In this document: positions 10,320-61,956 of the stretch, in pieces
Numbering within the stretch: the first letter of the stretch is position 1
How the letters are laid out: each line of letters opens with the position of its first letter
DNA from: Chitinophagaceae bacterium
GTDB taxonomy: Bacteria > Bacteroidota > Bacteroidia > Chitinophagales > Chitinophagaceae
DNA length: 64,000 nucleotides
Direction: 5' to 3'
NCBI GenBank assembly: GCA_019752045.1
Contig: JAIEMP010000007.1
Span: 372,001-436,000, forward strand
The notes under the pieces: model-generated
What the model was told of the DNA's origin: nothing
Databases searched by the model: none
What the model saw: the letters and a program-made list of their open reading frames with translations, nothing else
Program-made: the position numbers and the translations under genes

Positions 10320-12485
10320 ATGAAGAGAATAAATATATTGCTGCTGTTATTGTTTTGTTGTTCGTTTGTTCGAGCTGAGAATGGTTATGATCTTTGGTTA
10401 CGTTATGTGCCTATCAAAAACAAAACACTTCTTTTTGAATACAAAAAACAAATTGCATCACCGGTTGTGCTTGGCTCATCAGCTACTGCTGATATTGCAC
10501 GGAAAGAATTAGCAATTGCACTAACAGGCTTAACAGGGAGCAGTTATTTAATTAACAGCACCATTAATACATCAAGTGTACTCATAGCAGGTACTGTAAA
10601 TTCATCTCCTGTTTTAGCTGCACTTGTTACAAAAGAAGAATTAAATCGTATTGGCGATGAAGGCTTCATCATTAAAGCAAAGCCCGGCAAAACATTTATT
10701 ACAGGTAATACAGATATTGCTGTGCTCTATGGCATTTTTCATTACCTGCGTTTAATACAAACCAATCAACAGGTAACAAATCTCAATATTGTTTCAGCAC
10801 CCAAACTGAAATTACGCATGCTCAATCATTGGGATAATCTCGACCGCACTGTTGAACGTGGTTATGCAGCTTTTTCCATCTGGGATTGGCATCGTCTTCC
10901 AACATTTATTGATCAACGTTATATTGACTATGCGAGAGCAAATGCATCGATTGGCATTAATGCAATGGTGTTAACGAACGTAAATGCAAACGCAATCATC
11001 CTTACTCCTGCTTATCTTGAAAAAGTAAAAAAGCTGGCTGATGTTTTTCGTCCTTATGGTATCAAAGTTTTTTTAACTGCACGTTTCAGCGCTCCTATTG
11101 AATTAGGAAAATTAAAAACTGCTGATCCGTTAGATAATACAGTACAACAATGGTGGACTGTAAAAGCAAATGAGATCTATTCATTCATTCCCGACTTTGG
11201 TGGTTTTCTCGTGAAAGCAAACAGCGAAGGACAACCCGGTCCGCAGGATTATAAACGTACACATGCAGATGGCGCAAATATGCTGGCCAGTGCAGTAGCT
11301 CCGCATAAAGGAATTGTGATATGGCGTGCATTTGTGTATGCAGCGGAAAATCCTGTTGATCGGCATAAGCAAGCCTACGATGATTTTGTTCCGCTCGATG
11401 GAAAATTCAACAGCAATGTACTTGTACAGGTAAAGAATGGCGCAATTGATTTTATGCCACGTGAACCTTTTCATCCATTGTTTGGTGCCATGCCCAAAAC
11501 ACCGTTGATGATGGAGTTCCAGGTAACACAGGAATATTTAGGACAGGCAACCAACTGGGTTTTTCTTGCTCCTTTATTTAAAGAAGTATTGGATGCTGAT
11601 ACATATGCTAAAGCCCGCCCGGATGACCCGGTCGGACGGGGAAAAGGCAGCACTGTTGCCAAAGTAATTGATGGGAGTTTAGATAATCATGCGCTCAATG
11701 GTATGACAGGTGTTGCAAATATCGGTAACGACATCAACTGGTGTGGTCATCCAATGGCACAGGCAAATTGGTATGCACTTGGCCGGCTTGCATGGGATTA
11801 TAATTTATCGAGCGATGCAATTGCTGATGAATGGTTGCGTATGACGTTTAGTAATGATGCAGCATTTGTACAATCAACAAAACAGATCATGCTACGCAGC
11901 AGAGAGATCATGGTTGATTATATGAATCCCATTGGTCTGCATCATATCATGAGTACCGGTCATCACTATGGTCCTGCACCCTGGGTTAGTAATCTCAATC
12001 GTCCTGAATGGAATCCTGTTTATTATCACAAAGCAGATAGTATGGGTATTGGTTTTAACCGCACAAGCAGCGGCAGCAAAGCCATAGAGCAGTATCAACC
12101 GGCAGCAAGAAAGCAATGGGAAGACGTAGCAACTTGCGATGAAAAATATCTGCTGTGGTTTCATCATTCTTCGTGGAATCATAAAATGAAAAGCGGTCGC
12201 ACACTTTGGAACGAACTTGTTTACAAATATTATACTGGAGCAGACAGTGTGAAATGGATGAAGAATGAATGGTTAAAACAAGAATCAAAAATTGATGCGC
12301 AACGGTTCAGGGAAGTGAGCATGTTACTCGATACACAACTGGAAGAGGCAAAGTGGTGGCGCAATGCATGTGTACTTTACTTCCAGACTTTTTCCAAACA
12401 ACCTATTCCTCCGAATTACGAACAACCAGATAAAACATTAGACTATTATAAAAGTTTACGTTTCCCGTTTGCACCGGGCAACTAG
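10320..12485 (+). CDS. GH67 alpha-glucuronidase
   Basis: A 721-residue glycoside hydrolase family 67 enzyme that cleaves the alpha-1,2 bond of (4-O-methyl)glucuronic acid in xylo-oligosaccharides. A signal peptide (MKRINILLLLLFCCSFVRA) predicts export. The family hallmarks LRMLNHWDNLDRTVERGY, GGFLVKANSEGQPGP (about residues 294-308) and NIGNDINWCGHPMAQANW are all present. Around residues 432-440 it carries a 9-residue segment (ARPDDPVGR) encoded by a 27-bp GC-rich palindrome-like element, in a place where the family normally reads TYAKGKGSTVAKV. This looks like an in-frame repeat insertion. The SDR gene follows after 27 bp. Confidence 0.96.
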   Translation: MKRINILLLLLFCCSFVRAENGYDLWLRYVPIKNKTLLFEYKKQIASPVVLGSSATADIARKELAIALTGLTGSSYLINSTINTSSVLIAGTVNSSPVLAALVTKEELNRIGDEGFIIKAKPGKTFITGNTDIAVLYGIFHYLRLIQTNQQVTNLNIVSAPKLKLRMLNHWDNLDRTVERGYAAFSIWDWHRLPTFIDQRYIDYARANASIGINAMVLTNVNANAIILTPAYLEKVKKLADVFRPYGIKVFLTARFSAPIELGKLKTADPLDNTVQQWWTVKANEIYSFIPDFGGFLVKANSEGQPGPQDYKRTHADGANMLASAVAPHKGIVIWRAFVYAAENPVDRHKQAYDDFVPLDGKFNSNVLVQVKNGAIDFMPREPFHPLFGAMPKTPLMMEFQVTQEYLGQATNWVFLAPLFKEVLDADTYAKARPDDPVGRGKGSTVAKVIDGSLDNHALNGMTGVANIGNDINWCGHPMAQANWYALGRLAWDYNLSSDAIADEWLRMTFSNDAAFVQSTKQIMLRSREIMVDYMNPIGLHHIMSTGHHYGPAPWVSNLNRPEWNPVYYHKADSMGIGFNRTSSGSKAIEQYQPAARKQWEDVATCDEKYLLWFHHSSWNHKMKSGRTLWNELVYKYYTGADSVKWMKNEWLKQESKIDAQRFREVSMLLDTQLEEAKWWRNACVLYFQTFSKQPIPPNYEQPDKTLDYYKSLRFPFAPGN
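11614..11640. repeat. 27-bp GC-rich element inserted in frame in GH67
   Basis: CCCGCCCGGATGACCCGGTC-GGACGGG: inverted CCCG/CGGG ends, and its last ten bases match the GTCGGACGGG end of the REP elements near 58.6 kb. It is exactly 27 bp, so the reading frame is kept. Confidence 0.55.
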
Positions 12486-23756: not shown

Positions 23757-23785
23757 TCCCCTCCTGGGAGGGGCTTGGGGTGGGT
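23757..23785. repeat. CCCCTCC/GGAGGGG palindromic repeat
   Basis: TCCCCTCCTGGGAGGGGCTT-GGGGTGGGT: a hairpin (CCCCTCC, GGAGGGG) followed by a GGGGTGGGT tail, 20 bp upstream of the lactonase ATG. The same layout occurs at 32940-32970, is split at 21739-21818, and in looser form appears inside the FadB-type gene. Confidence 0.6.
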
Positions 23786-32939: not shown

Positions 32940-32970
32940 TCTCCTCCCGGGAGGAGATTAAGAGGTGGGT
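32940..32970. repeat. CCTCCCGGGAGG palindromic repeat between ABC genes
   Basis: TCTCCTCCCGGGAGGAGATT-AAGAGGTGGGT: a perfect hairpin core (CTCCTCCCGGGAGGAG) with a GGTGGGT tail, the same layout as 23757-23785. It lies between the ATPase and permease genes and could lower read-through between them. Confidence 0.6.
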
Positions 32971-33018
32971 TAAATCAGGGCTGTTATAAAAAATAAACCA
33001 TTAAACTATTTGATTTAT

Positions 33019-58568: not shown

Positions 58569-58606
58569 GCAGTAAAAATATGGAAGTTGATGAAGAAAGA
58601 AACACG

Positions 58607-58633
58607 CCCCGTCAGACGCCCTCGTCGGACGGG
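58607..58633. repeat. REP element copy 1
   Basis: CCCCGTCAGACGCCCTCGTC-GGACGGG. The CCCGTC.GACG arms pair with the CGTC.GACGGG arms. Same orientation as copy 3. Confidence 0.85.
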
Positions 58634-58677
58634 ATAAATCTTCACTTTCAAAAAAAGGAAAAAAAAGTCACTTTGAA

Positions 58678-58703
58678 CCCCCGTCCGACGAGGGCGTCTG
58701 ACG
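58678..58703. repeat. REP element copy 2 (inverted)
   Basis: Reverse complement of copies 1 and 3 (CCCGTCCGACGAGGGCGTCT and onwards). With copy 1 it forms an inverted pair about 45 bp apart, as in E. coli bacterial interspersed mosaic elements. Confidence 0.85.
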
Positions 58704-58706
58704 TAG

Positions 58707-58775
58707 CCTTAAATTTCAAACCGGCTTACCACCCTTCAACACACTCTTTTTGCGTTCAAGCTGTTCCATTTTTCT
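58707..58775 (-). pseudogene. Partial duplicate of the 3' end of the FadB-type gene
   Basis: Read on the minus strand this gives MEQLERKKSVLKGGKPV and a stop. The end of the intact gene at 59522 reads SLERIQSVLKGGKPVRN. At DNA level 25 of 27 bases around AACCGGCTT..CCCTTCAACACACT agree. In both places a REP element in the same orientation follows directly, so tail plus REP is the duplicated unit. Confidence 0.7.
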
Positions 58776-58779
58776 CACG

Positions 58780-58808
58780 CCCCCCGTCAGACGCCCTCGT
58801 CGGACGGG
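58780..58808. repeat. REP element copy 3
   Basis: CCCCCGTCAGACGCCCTCGT-CGGACGGG, same orientation as copy 1. It ends 5 bp before the stop codon of the RAYT gene. Confidence 0.85.
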
Positions 58809-58812
58809 AAAA

Positions 58813-59406
58813 CTAAGCTTCAAAAAACGAATTAACAAGTTCATCTGGAATTCTTTGTTCTGTTAACTTGATAAATGTTGAAGAATCAAACTCGCACAAT
58901 TGTTTCGCAAGTTCCATATTGCAAATACTTTGCTTTCTTGTTCCTGCATAAAAATGATAAGAAGAATATTTCCATAATGATACCCTGCTTACAATACCGT
59001 GCCTCCATGCATTTTGAGTTATGTAATAAAAACAATTGAGATAACTCATGGCACTTTTATCATCCGTTAAATTTTTCGATTTTGTTTTGGGGCGAAAAAC
59101 TGAACCGCTTTTTTGATGTGCTTTGTTGAATTCATGCGCATATGCACCTGATAAATTTCTGAACCCGTTTGACACAGAATCAAGCATGATATTTCCCTGC
59201 TTTACCGGAACACAGTTTTCTTTTACTGATAACATGAAATGATAATGATTCGGAATTAAAGACCACGCAAGTACATCTGCAAAAGGCAAGACATACGAAC
59301 TGAATAATTCCAAAAATCGTTTGTAATCAGCATCGGTATAAAACAGTTGTTGCTGATTATTGCCTTGATTGTAGACATGATATACATTGTTCGGCAAGAA
59401 TTTCAT
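58813..59406 (-). CDS. REP-associated tyrosine transposase (RAYT, IS200-like Y1 family)
   Basis: A 197-residue single-strand DNA transposase of the Y1/HUH class. The HUH metal motif is His54-Tyr55-His56 in SLIPNHYHFML. A YYITQN stretch near residue 127 offers the catalytic tyrosine. VYHVYNQGNN at the N-terminus is typical. It stands between REP copies 3 and 4, in inverted orientation to each other. RAYTs are domesticated relatives of IS200 that are thought to move REP sequences; no left or right IS200-type ends are visible. Confidence 0.9.
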   Translation of the reverse strand: MKFLPNNVYHVYNQGNNQQQLFYTDADYKRFLELFSSYVLPFADVLAWSLIPNHYHFMLSVKENCVPVKQGNIMLDSVSNGFRNLSGAYAHEFNKAHQKSGSVFRPKTKSKNLTDDKSAMSYLNCFYYITQNAWRHGIVSRVSLWKYSSYHFYAGTRKQSICNMELAKQLCEFDSSTFIKLTEQRIPDELVNSFFEA

Positions 59407-59447: not shown

Positions 59448-59491
59448 ATAATTATTGACAGTATGAATTAAATGTAAACAGCACTTATATT

Positions 59492-59515
59492 CCCCGTCCG
59501 ACGAGGGCGTCTGAC
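59492..59515. repeat. REP element copy 4 (inverted)
   Basis: CCCCGTCCGACGAGGGCGTC-TGACG, same orientation as copy 2, 7 bp beyond the stop of the FadB-type gene. Confidence 0.85.
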
Positions 59516-59521
59516 GTGGCG

Positions 59522-61927
59522 TTAGTTGCGAACCGGCTTCCCGCCCTTCAACACACTTTGAATTCTTTCAAGCGATTTCTTTTCACCACAAAGAGATAAG
59601 AAGGCTTCTCTTTCTAAGTCTAGTAAATATTGTTCAGTAACCAAAGTGGGTTCACTTAAATCACCGCCACACATGACGTATGCCAGCTTCTTGGCAACAA
59701 CACTATCATGCTCCGTAGCATAACCTGCTGTTTTCATTCCGTTAATACCTGCGAGTAATGCACCCAATGCCGAGCGACCTAATACCTTTACATCGTTGCG
59801 TTGAGTAGGTGCCACATAACCACTATCATAGATTTCAATCACTGATTTTTTTGCTTCTGAAATCCGACGGCCCTGGTTCATGACTACTTCATCCAATCCT
59901 TTACGGAATACACCCATTTCAAATCCTTCCTTCGCTGATGTGGCAACTTTTGCAGTAGCGATAGATAAGAAACGATTCTTTAATGTGATTGTCTCCGGTT
60001 CATCTTCATGCATTTCATCAGCAGCACGCAACACAAATTCTTTTGTGCCACCGCCGCCGGGAATTAAGCCAACACCTAACTCAACCAAACCAATATATGT
60101 TTCAGCCGCAGCACAAACCTTATCGCTATGCAGACTCAATTCACATGCACCGCCTAAGGTTAAACCATGCGGTGCTACTACTACAGGAATAGAAGAATAT
60201 CTTGCACGCATCATCGTATTCTGGAACATACGGATGGCCATATCGAGTTCATCGTATTCCTGTTCAATTGCCAGCATAAAGATCATACCCACATTTGCAC
60301 CTGCACTAAATTGCGCAGCATCGTTTGCAATCACTACCCCTTTGTATTTTTCTTCTGCTAATGCAATTGTTTTTTGAATGCCTTCCAATACTTCGCCACC
60401 AATACTGCCCATTTTTGTACTCCACTCTAATCCCAATACATCATCACCTAAATGATATGTTCTGCAGGCTGCATTTTTCCATACAGTCTGATTTTCGAAA
60501 TTCTTCATCACAATAAATGCGGCCCCCTCCTGACCTCCCCCAAAAGGGGAGGAATAGCCTCCGCTAATTGAAGAGTAATACATTCGTTCAGCGTTTTCTA
60601 CTTTATAAAATGAAGTAATTCCTTTCGCTAGCATTTCATCTACCCAAGCAGCAACTTTATACCCGGCTGCTTTCATGGCATCAACTGTTTTTGTAACGCC
60701 CAGCACATCCCAACTTTCAAACGCTCCAATTTCCCAACCAAAGCCGGCCATCATCGCATCATCAACACGATACAACTCATCGCTGATCTCCGGAATACGA
60801 TGTGAGATGTAAGAAAACAAACTGTAATGAAACTGTTTGTAAAACTCACCTGCCTTATCGGTGCTGTTGCACAACATTTTTAATCTCGTCTTGAGATCAT
60901 CAATGGGTTTCGCTGCTTCCACACTTGCAAACTTTGGTTTTACACGTGGACCGTATTCCATTGTTTGCAGATTGAGGGTGAGAATTTCTTTAGCCCCCTC
61001 CCGACCTCCCCCCGAGGGGGAGGAGACTTTCTTAAAGAAACCCTGACCGGTTTTATCACCCAGCCAATTATTCTCAATCATTTTATTGAGCCAGGATGGA
61101 ATGGCAAAGATTTCTTTCGCTTCATCATTAGGACAATTCTCTGCAACACCCTTCGCTACTTTCACCAATGTATCCAAACCAACTACATCACCAGTACGGA
61201 ACGTAGCAGATTTAGGGCGACCAATGATGGGACCAGTCAATGCATCAATCTCATCTACATTCAACTGCATCTTATCCATCGCATTCATGATCGCCATCAT
61301 TCCAAACACACCAACACGATTTGCAATAAATGCAGGCGTGTCTTTACACAACACCGTTGTTTTACCGAGATAGAGATCACCATAGTTCATTAAAAAATCA
61401 ACAACCGATTGATCTGTATATTTTGTTGGAATGATTTCCAGCAAACGCAAGTAGCGTGGTGGGTTAAAAAAGTGTGTACCGCAGAAATGTTTTTTGAAAT
61501 CTTCACTTCTTCCTTCTGCCATCATGCTGATGGGTATACCGGAAGTATTTGATGTAATGAGTGTACCGGGCTTGCGGAATTTTTCTACCTGTTCAAAAAT
61601 GAGTTGTTTAATATCGAGACGTTCAACTACAACTTCTATCACCCAATCACAGGAAGCAATATCTTTCATGTTATCGGTGAAGTTGCCCGTAGTAATTTTC
61701 TTCACTACATCTTTTGTATAAACAGGCGATGGGTTGCTTTTGATGGCAGCCGTTAATGCATCGTTCACTAATTTATTTCGTTCAGCAGGTTTGGTACTTT
61801 CTTCAAAACCCTTCGGCACCATATCGAGTAAGATCGTTTGTAAACCAACGCCTGCAAAATGACATGCAATGCGTGAACCCATTACACCGCTACCTAGAAC
61901 GGCTACTTTTTTAATTGTACGTTTCAT
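59522..61927 (-). CDS. 3-hydroxyacyl-CoA dehydrogenase / enoyl-CoA hydratase (FadB/FadJ-type)
   Basis: A roughly 801-residue multifunctional beta-oxidation protein. The order is reversed relative to E. coli FadB: the NAD-binding 3-hydroxyacyl-CoA dehydrogenase comes first (VAVLGSGVMGSRIACHFAG; FCGTHFFNPPRYLRLLEIIP; GLDTLVKVAKG), and the enoyl-CoA hydratase domain follows (APHGLTLGGACELSLHSDKV; LGVGLIPGGGGTKEFVLR). The ATG at about 61927 gives MKRTIKKVAVLG; a GTG six codons earlier is possible. Two 32-bp palindromic inserts add SSPSGGGREGA and SSPFGGGQEGA in interdomain stretches without breaking the frame. Confidence 0.95.
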   Translation of the reverse strand: MKRTIKKVAVLGSGVMGSRIACHFAGVGLQTILLDMVPKGFEESTKPAERNKLVNDALTAAIKSNPSPVYTKDVVKKITTGNFTDNMKDIASCDWVIEVVVERLDIKQLIFEQVEKFRKPGTLITSNTSGIPISMMAEGRSEDFKKHFCGTHFFNPPRYLRLLEIIPTKYTDQSVVDFLMNYGDLYLGKTTVLCKDTPAFIANRVGVFGMMAIMNAMDKMQLNVDEIDALTGPIIGRPKSATFRTGDVVGLDTLVKVAKGVAENCPNDEAKEIFAIPSWLNKMIENNWLGDKTGQGFFKKVSSPSGGGREGAKEILTLNLQTMEYGPRVKPKFASVEAAKPIDDLKTRLKMLCNSTDKAGEFYKQFHYSLFSYISHRIPEISDELYRVDDAMMAGFGWEIGAFESWDVLGVTKTVDAMKAAGYKVAAWVDEMLAKGITSFYKVENAERMYYSSISGGYSSPFGGGQEGAAFIVMKNFENQTVWKNAACRTYHLGDDVLGLEWSTKMGSIGGEVLEGIQKTIALAEEKYKGVVIANDAAQFSAGANVGMIFMLAIEQEYDELDMAIRMFQNTMMRARYSSIPVVVAPHGLTLGGACELSLHSDKVCAAAETYIGLVELGVGLIPGGGGTKEFVLRAADEMHEDEPETITLKNRFLSIATAKVATSAKEGFEMGVFRKGLDEVVMNQGRRISEAKKSVIEIYDSGYVAPTQRNDVKVLGRSALGALLAGINGMKTAGYATEHDSVVAKKLAYVMCGGDLSEPTLVTEQYLLDLEREAFLSLCGEKKSLERIQSVLKGGKPVRN
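60522..60553. repeat. In-frame palindromic insert B in the FadB-type gene
   Basis: A 32-bp element, GCCCCCTCCTGACCTCCCCC then AAAAGGGGAGGA, identical at 28 of 32 positions to insert A. It encodes SSPFGGGQEGA on the gene strand near residues 459-469. Confidence 0.75.
60993..61024. repeat. In-frame palindromic insert A in the FadB-type gene
   Basis: A 32-bp element, GCCCCCTCCCGACCTCCCCC then CGAGGGGGAGGA. It encodes SSPSGGGREGA near residues 302-312, between the dehydrogenase domain and the next segment. Confidence 0.75.
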
Positions 61928-61943
61928 ATCTCTCACTGATTTC

Positions 61944-61956
61944 ACAGATTTACACA
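61944..61956. repeat. Left inverted repeat of the GxxExxY unit
   Basis: CACAGATTTACAC, perfect reverse complement of GTGTAAATCTGTG at 62359-62371. The similarity extends weakly outward (TCTCACTGATTT against GCTCACAGATGA). Position is accurate to about one base. Confidence 0.65.

Follow-up and report, generated by a model that had tools for sequence, protein, structure and literature searches.

The two glycine-rich insertions that interrupt a FadB-type gene of a Lacibacter genome (family Chitinophagaceae) are probably, at a likelihood that we put at roughly 60%, solo ends of a mobile element that is bounded by palindromes, encodes a DUF559 nuclease when complete and resides, unspliced, inside proteins. 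The gene lies in the window, by which we mean the whole 64,000-nucleotide stretch of DNA that was analyzed, and the genome (G000) comprises 4.16 Mb in 29 contigs. The gene and its inserts are:

59522-61945, minus strand: FadB-type 3-hydroxyacyl-CoA dehydrogenase / enoyl-CoA hydratase of 807 aa, from its ORF and Pfam matches
60992-61025, minus strand: insert A, candidate solo palindromic end in gene sense (right-end orientation)
60521-60563, minus strand: insert B, candidate solo palindromic end in gene sense

The FadB inserts and the palindrome family R1

The FadB-type ORF matches the Pfam families 3HCDH_N, 3HCDH and ECH_1/ECH_2, and it has one full-length match in its own genome, the remaining matches being partial. 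Both inserts lie within this one 807-aa frame, which is kept, as a preliminary description made from the sequence had stated. The peptides that it gave also stand: insert A encodes SSPSGGGREGA (residues 308-318, window 60992-61024) and insert B encodes SSPFGGGQEGA (residues 465-475, window 60521-60553). The inserts do belong to one family, but the 34-base copies are identical at 28 of 34 positions rather than 28 of 32, and they are not simple additions of 11 residues. Relative to most orthologues, the protein has grown by only 5 aa at A and 4 aa (+12 nt) at B, which falls short of 11 aa because a native Gly-rich loop was replaced at both sites; at A, the FadB alignment shows ~36 nt in place of a native loop of ~21 nt. 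Insert B is moreover longer than the 32 bp first assigned to it, extending into AGCCTCCG (60556-60563), which matches the inner tail of other copies. The scores of the two inserts against the covariance model R1 (56.7 bits for A; 54.7 bits over 60521-60554 for B) are not independent, because both are among the 15 copies, picked by eye for their common length, from which this model of 34 positions (consensus GGCCCCCTCCCGACCTCCCCCnGAAGGGGAGGAG) was built.

The preliminary description had proposed an alignment with FadB orthologues, and the loops turned out not to be universal. Among 30 aligned FadB ORFs, a count that includes G000 itself, insert B is present in three (G000, G012 and G009), while insert A is confined to G000 and missing from the other 29. 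Insert B lies within a 191-nt stretch that is identical in G000 and G012. Over codons 480-510 of the FadB alignment, these two genomes are 100% identical, whereas G000 is only 61-62% identical to five other Lacibacter genomes, a contrast that suggests local recombination behind the shared insert. We compared 80 further orthologues from named genomes, one of which is the same genome as G012. At site B, a Bacteroidetes MAG (L208) carries TSPTGGGQEGA and a Ferruginibacter MAG (L188) a different palindrome; at site A, Niastella populi (L174) carries ASPPAGGGGLEGA, and two more orthologues share a short MPPSPKGE loop. By these sequences, both FadB loops have been struck again in other lineages. An AlphaFold model of the protein places both inserts in low-confidence stretches (312-318 and 468-476) and was used solely for that placement because the model is mediocre (mean pLDDT 65.2).

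Further copies, for which the preliminary description had proposed a genome search, are abundant. The exact pattern CCCCTCCN{2,6}CCTCCCC has 31 matches in G000; the control of this pattern search is uninformative, since reversing the pattern leaves it unchanged. R1 yields 102 hits there at E<=1, of which 54 pass E<=1e-3 (best E 7.5e-11). Hits at E<=1e-3 occur in 9 of 14 genomes of the genus, five having none (G000 54, G012 32, G009 24, G004 12, G013 4, G002 2, and G001, G003 and G011 1 each); by these counts, four genomes are rich in R1 and close relatives contain hardly any. There are several subfamilies with matching changes in both hairpin arms, as seen by eye, among them GCCCCCTCC..CCTCCCCC, CTCTAAATCTCCCCC and CTTCCGACTTCCCCC, in which the hairpin is kept. 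A known RNA family was ruled out for the palindrome, since an Rfam scan of the window and six element loci returned nothing but a tRNA. Palindromes can also be nested: a palindrome like the repeat at window 11609-11644 sits inside R1 copies at G000:C17:35412-35469 (L315) and G000:C9:18430-18487 (L311), and these copies are themselves in frame, in ArgB and in an MtaB-type gene. At a site in IspG (G000; L010 1487, L095 745, L147, L074), different palindrome subfamilies occupy different Lacibacter genomes, which suggests repeated hits or replacement at one site.

Two intergenic palindromes of the window had been thought to share the layout of the inserts:

23758-23785, no strand: palindrome CCCCTCC..GGAGGGG followed by GGGGTGGGT; one of 23 places in the genome with this hairpin pattern
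32940-32971, no strand: looser palindrome of sister layout (CTCCTCCCGGGAGGAG..GGTGGGT), assigned from sequence; R1 12.4 bits, E 0.3

The CCCCTCC/GGAGGGG layout claimed for 23757-23785 and 32940-32970 is indeed found at 23758, but as that of a sister family, and the second palindrome is looser. Two of the 23 places lie beside a DUF559 gene (G000:C7:162957), and the palindrome at 23758 has the layout of the left flank of this gene. By eye, the two intergenic palindromes look like members of a sister family (CCCCTCC..GGAGGGG..GGGGTGGG) with its own nuclease, the one at ~32940 being the looser.

Many R1 copies are translated as part of proteins. A copy was counted as in-ORF when its open frame spanned 100 codons or more, it lay 15 or more codons away from both ends of that frame (start and stop), and the codon score exceeded 0.12; by this rule 44 of the 102 G000 hits are in ORFs and 58 fail, some of these lying at gene ends. 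One orientation and frame dominates, with 27 copies in rev 2, 7 in fwd 2, 5 in fwd 0, 3 in rev 1 and 2 in fwd 1, and the dominant frame gives the peptide pattern [ASV]SPxGGxxxGA. The 27 of 44 compare with 8.8 expected from the stop-free frames of each copy (P 2.1e-9), and the 14 rev 2 copies among the 28 in-ORF copies below 46 bits compare with 6.0 expected (P 7e-4); both P values are too small because the copies are not independent, several lying in one gene or being shared by descent. An earlier pass over 120 copies from several genomes, which counted shared sites repeatedly, found 61 in ORFs, 46 of them in rev 2.

The hosts are mostly housekeeping enzymes. NCBIfam names, which cover most of the hosts in G000 (L007 has only a weak unrelated match, and the ORFs L301 and L304 lie outside the scan), are RlmD, PurH, IcmF, IspG, ArgH, TadA, pyruvate dehydrogenase E1, PhzF, ValS, MurC, UDP-glucose dehydrogenase, ArgC, gamma-glutamyltransferase, MetG, AcsA, PheA, HemF, PcrA-type helicase, ThrB, TrpE, TrpF, LeuS, MetH, RarA-type AAA ATPase, GcvP, ArgB and MtaB. 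The six hosts checked for copy number (LeuS, ValS, PurH, MetG, TadA and MurC) are each single copy in the genome. The MurC match was reported with a stop inside the aligned stretch, yet the open frame contains the insert.

The sites can be compared with empty counterparts in G007, a relative that is 95% identical in FadB and has no R1 hits at E<=1e-3. Each of the 28 in-ORF sites from a first pass has a G007 orthologue that lacks the element and keeps the host frame, with poor alignment on one side at a few of them (e.g. PheA, HemF and PcrA). At 28 sites, G012 shares the element at 13, lacks it at 10 and is intermediate at 5; several of the intermediate loops are occupied, by eye, by other palindromes. 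At the compared sites, around which the loops differ between species, we saw neither a clean target duplication nor a precise empty site. Simple insertion of exactly one element length was rejected, as the net change relative to G007 runs from -2 to +24 aa; this variability arises because loops were replaced, some genes carry two copies and the loops themselves vary. The idea that R1 is a mobile palindrome tolerated in frame inside proteins is well supported by the many in-frame copies, their one dominant frame and the sites that are empty in a relative.

The DUF559 nuclease and its palindromic flanks

In two further genes of G000, DUF559 lies between two R1 copies:

LeuS: R1 forward at 339291, DUF559 at C2:339380-339697 in one frame with LeuS, R1 reversed at 339721
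AcsA: R1 at 122606, DUF559 at 122700-123017, R1 at 123059, in the same layout as LeuS

DUF559 is bracketed by R1 copies in LeuS and AcsA of G000 and G012, in an adenine deaminase of G012 and in LeuS of G004, and has R1 on one side in the adenine deaminase of G009; LeuS of G007 lacks both R1 and DUF559. The right end of both in-gene full elements of G000 is read in rev 2, the frame that dominates among solo copies, and the FadB inserts are therefore best read as solo right ends in gene sense. The LeuS insert encodes ~160 aa, 106 of which are DUF559. This leaves no room for a splicing domain; an intein was ruled out by size, the LeuS and AcsA segments consisting of palindrome peptide, DUF559 and palindrome peptide, and the NCBIfam tables of the hosts scanned contain no intein model.

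The arrangement extends beyond these genes. Our genus scan gave 38 DUF559 matches, of which 29 loci were used, and our family scan covered 98 genomes, 48 of them with a match; 28 loci from among the best-scoring were used. We then took the 220 nt preceding each domain and aligned them locally with the reverse-complemented 220 nt that follow. Inverted flanks scored at least 18 at 39 of these 57 genus and family loci, compared with 66 of 672 cross-locus pairs and 8 of 160 control windows from FadB loci; at a score of at least 20, the counts were 34/57, 46/672 and 2/160. The phylum scan covered 296 genomes, 126 of them with a DUF559 match at E<=1e-15, and among 29 loci taken from its best-scoring ones 14 reached 18, against 32 of 336 cross pairs. 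Eighteen of the 57 loci fall below the threshold. One, at G000 C1:89264, scores 10, not above shuffled sequence, and both adenine deaminase copies score low (10 and 11) though their palindromes are visible by eye. By eye as well, LeuS- and HsdR-like proteins from other Bacteroidota in the phylum sample (L393-L421) have DUF559 flanked by peptides that palindromes encode.

Palindrome types follow nuclease types. Across 1533 pairs of elements in different hosts, flank similarity correlates with nuclease similarity (rho 0.34), and the share of pairs with a flank score of at least 20 rises from 1.5% at 30-40% nuclease identity to 12% (40-50%), 23% (50-60%) and 59% (>=60%). R1 and DUF559 counts also correlate over the 14 genus genomes (rho 0.67, P 0.009); the exceptions are G013, with 4 R1 hits and no DUF559 hit, and G010, G007 and G005, with DUF559 but no R1 hits.

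Within the sequence available around each locus, 47 of 86 DUF559 loci lie in open frames of at least 300 codons and 39 in shorter ORFs. An ATG within 40 codons upstream of the domain is present at 24/47 of the long-frame loci compared with 38/39 of the shorter ORFs, a difference that would be expected if translation of embedded copies began at the start codon of the host. Host genes were scanned for 29 of 35 embedded loci from genus and family, and comprise LeuS (9), MetH (4), AroC (4), MetG (2), ArgB (2) and, once each, AcsA, adenine deaminase, CinA, HsdR, a DEXH helicase and HisA; one more of the 29 has a hypothetical-protein host and one has no host match. DUF559 is N-terminal in ArgB and HisA, and one LeuS (L369, G041:C90) contains two DUF559 domains in one open frame.

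The nuclease itself is well conserved. DUF559 (PF04480) is found above its curated cut-off in 11 of 14 genus genomes, a solved relative is 3hrl (E 2.7e-21), and its W, E, Q, D, E, D and H columns show no variation among the 57/57 domains of genus and family. The E, D, E, D and H columns are putatively catalytic, a role that we assume from the Vsr/PD-(D/E)XK fold. Seven embedded pairs that give a ratio (LeuS, AcsA, AroC, Ade and ArgB) have dN/dS of 0.04-0.25: 0.04 each for LeuS and AcsA of G000/G012 (2 non-synonymous changes each), 0.12 for LeuS of G000/G004, 0.13-0.17 for AroC, 0.25 for adenine deaminase and 0.06 for ArgB of G010/G002. Stand-alone DUF559 genes give 0.07-0.14, and one ArgB pair is saturated. 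These ratios point to purifying selection on the nucleases inside host genes.

Possible mechanism and alternative explanations

We propose that the complete element would consist of a left palindrome, a DUF559 domain and an inverted right palindrome. Outside genes, it would have its own start and stop codon; inside a gene, one frame would run from the host through left palindrome, nuclease and right palindrome back into the host. The shorter derivatives would be solo ends and pairs of a left and a right end that lack the nuclease. The nuclease, we infer, drives movement: DUF559 might cut or nick DNA at the palindromes or at the target, after which host recombination could copy the element in, often replacing a short target stretch, and only in-frame copies in permissive loops would survive. 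Within 0-100 nt of the element, median G000/G012 identity is 94.0% at the 13 shared sites vs 89.2% at the 10 unshared ones, which align poorly near the insert and so introduce a bias (P 0.006). At 300-800 nt, it is 89.5 vs 89.2 (P 0.39), the 5 intermediate sites having been dropped from the comparison, and a paired test within the shared sites gave P 0.03. This hints at co-conversion of the flanks near shared elements, with alignment bias as a possible contributor.

It is also conceivable that R1 copies are REP-like repeats moved by an IS200-type Y1 transposase (RAYT) and that DUF559 genes are chance passengers between two palindromes. The genome does contain eight matches to PF01797 (Y1_Tnp; E cut-off 0.001), REP insertion inside ORFs of other species is described in PMC3733652, and the window has a candidate of its own next to FadB:

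58813-59406, minus strand: ORF with no Pfam or NCBIfam match
58602-58637, 58669-58711, 58777-58812 and 59487-59522: copies of palindrome CCCCGTCAGACGCCCTCGTCGGACGGGG

This ORF is putatively RAYT-like. It is flanked by inverted copies of the palindrome CCCCGTCAGACGCCCTCGTCGGACGGGG, which is unrelated to the FadB inserts. A 58-base stretch of the FadB 3' end (59526-59583) is repeated on the far side of the ORF, at 58714-58771, with 76% identity, as if the ORF lay beside a partial duplication of the gene end. However, no R1 hit was found in the flanks examined at any of the eight Y1_Tnp loci, even at E<=5, each being flanked by other palindromes, and none flanks the RAYT-like ORF of the window; RAYT is not supported as the mobilizer of R1. 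Chance passage is further opposed by the genus, family and phylum samples, where DUF559 is the gene between inverted cognate palindromes, and by the joint variation of nuclease and palindrome types. We regard a RAYT origin as unlikely.

Alternatively, palindromes and DUF559 might be stable, beneficial insertions, acting as linkers or as a recruited DNA-repair domain, with their similarity arising from ectopic gene conversion from loop to loop. Such a role would fit the purifying selection seen on embedded DUF559, as well as the recurrent occupation of particular loops, such as both FadB loops in other genera or one region of LeuS in several. This explanation is nevertheless rather improbable in our judgment, given that 58/102 copies lie outside ORFs, that a 95%-identical relative (G007) has empty sites, that the hosts are unrelated enzymes, and that the copies have the tails and inverted layout of a defined unit. 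Chance resemblance between unrelated, low-complexity Gly-rich loops is hardly credible: the native FadB loops at the two sites are already Gly-rich (KGAGGE and IPGGD), but the genome search, with 31 exact copies of a long two-part pattern, excludes it, as do model E-values down to 7.5e-11 and subfamilies whose changes match, by eye, in both arms.

Relation to known systems and significance

The DUF559 element resembles REP/RAYT systems, Rickettsia palindromic elements (RPEs) and homing nucleases, and falls under the full definition of none of them. In-gene palindromes as such are already known, since PMC3733652 describes both short palindromes tolerated in frame inside functional proteins (RPEs) and REP insertions inside ORFs, R. 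conorii included. The likeness to RPEs that the preliminary description had drawn holds for in-frame tolerance, with many copies, one dominant frame and empty sites in a relative; we do not claim RPE membership. What had not been foreseen, and what sets R1 apart from RPEs as described, is that the same family also forms both ends of a DUF559 element whose nuclease can be translated as part of a host protein. REP/RAYT systems share with R1 the many short hairpins, the inverted cognate copies around the gene of a DNA-processing enzyme and the co-variation of repeat types with that enzyme. The enzyme of R1, however, is DUF559 instead of an HUH/Y1 transposase, R1 is absent from the flanks of the eight Y1_Tnp loci of this genome, and neither a GTAG nor a CGTC tag is evident in the 34-position consensus of 15 copies.

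Vsr-like homing endonucleases have reportedly been described (I-Bth0305I; the Dassa 2009 family). Like homing endonucleases of inteins and introns, DUF559 is a nuclease ORF nested in a host gene, with occupied and empty alleles in relatives; unlike them, it lies in a continuous frame at variable-loop sites, has palindromic ends and occurs as free solo ends in many genes. IS elements and MITEs likewise have an enzyme gene enclosed by inverted ends, together with shorter non-autonomous copies; from these the DUF559 element differs in having no recognized transposase, no target duplication seen and an in-frame residence inside host proteins. Our searches of open-access papers turned up no report in which DUF559 has palindromic ends or acts as a mobile domain in frame with a host.

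On a broader scale, we see an even chance that these elements form a phylum-wide selfish class in Bacteroidota, whose Vsr-type DUF559 nuclease, flanked by palindromic ends, would be a permanent, translated and unspliced extra domain of essential proteins. Frame, ends and nuclease would be tuned to yield a harmless loop or domain, and short palindromes in and between genes would be solo ends. If our reading is right, a common domain of unknown function would acquire a role in DNA mobility, as the enzyme that a mobile element encodes. Short in-frame palindromes, puzzling ever since they were described in Rickettsia, would have a moving partner and a mechanism that may explain them. A further consequence would be that tRNA synthetases and other core enzymes routinely bear a foreign nuclease domain in living cells, with a bearing on annotation, on how proteins acquire new loops and domains, and on the ways in which selfish DNA may hide where the host can hardly delete it.
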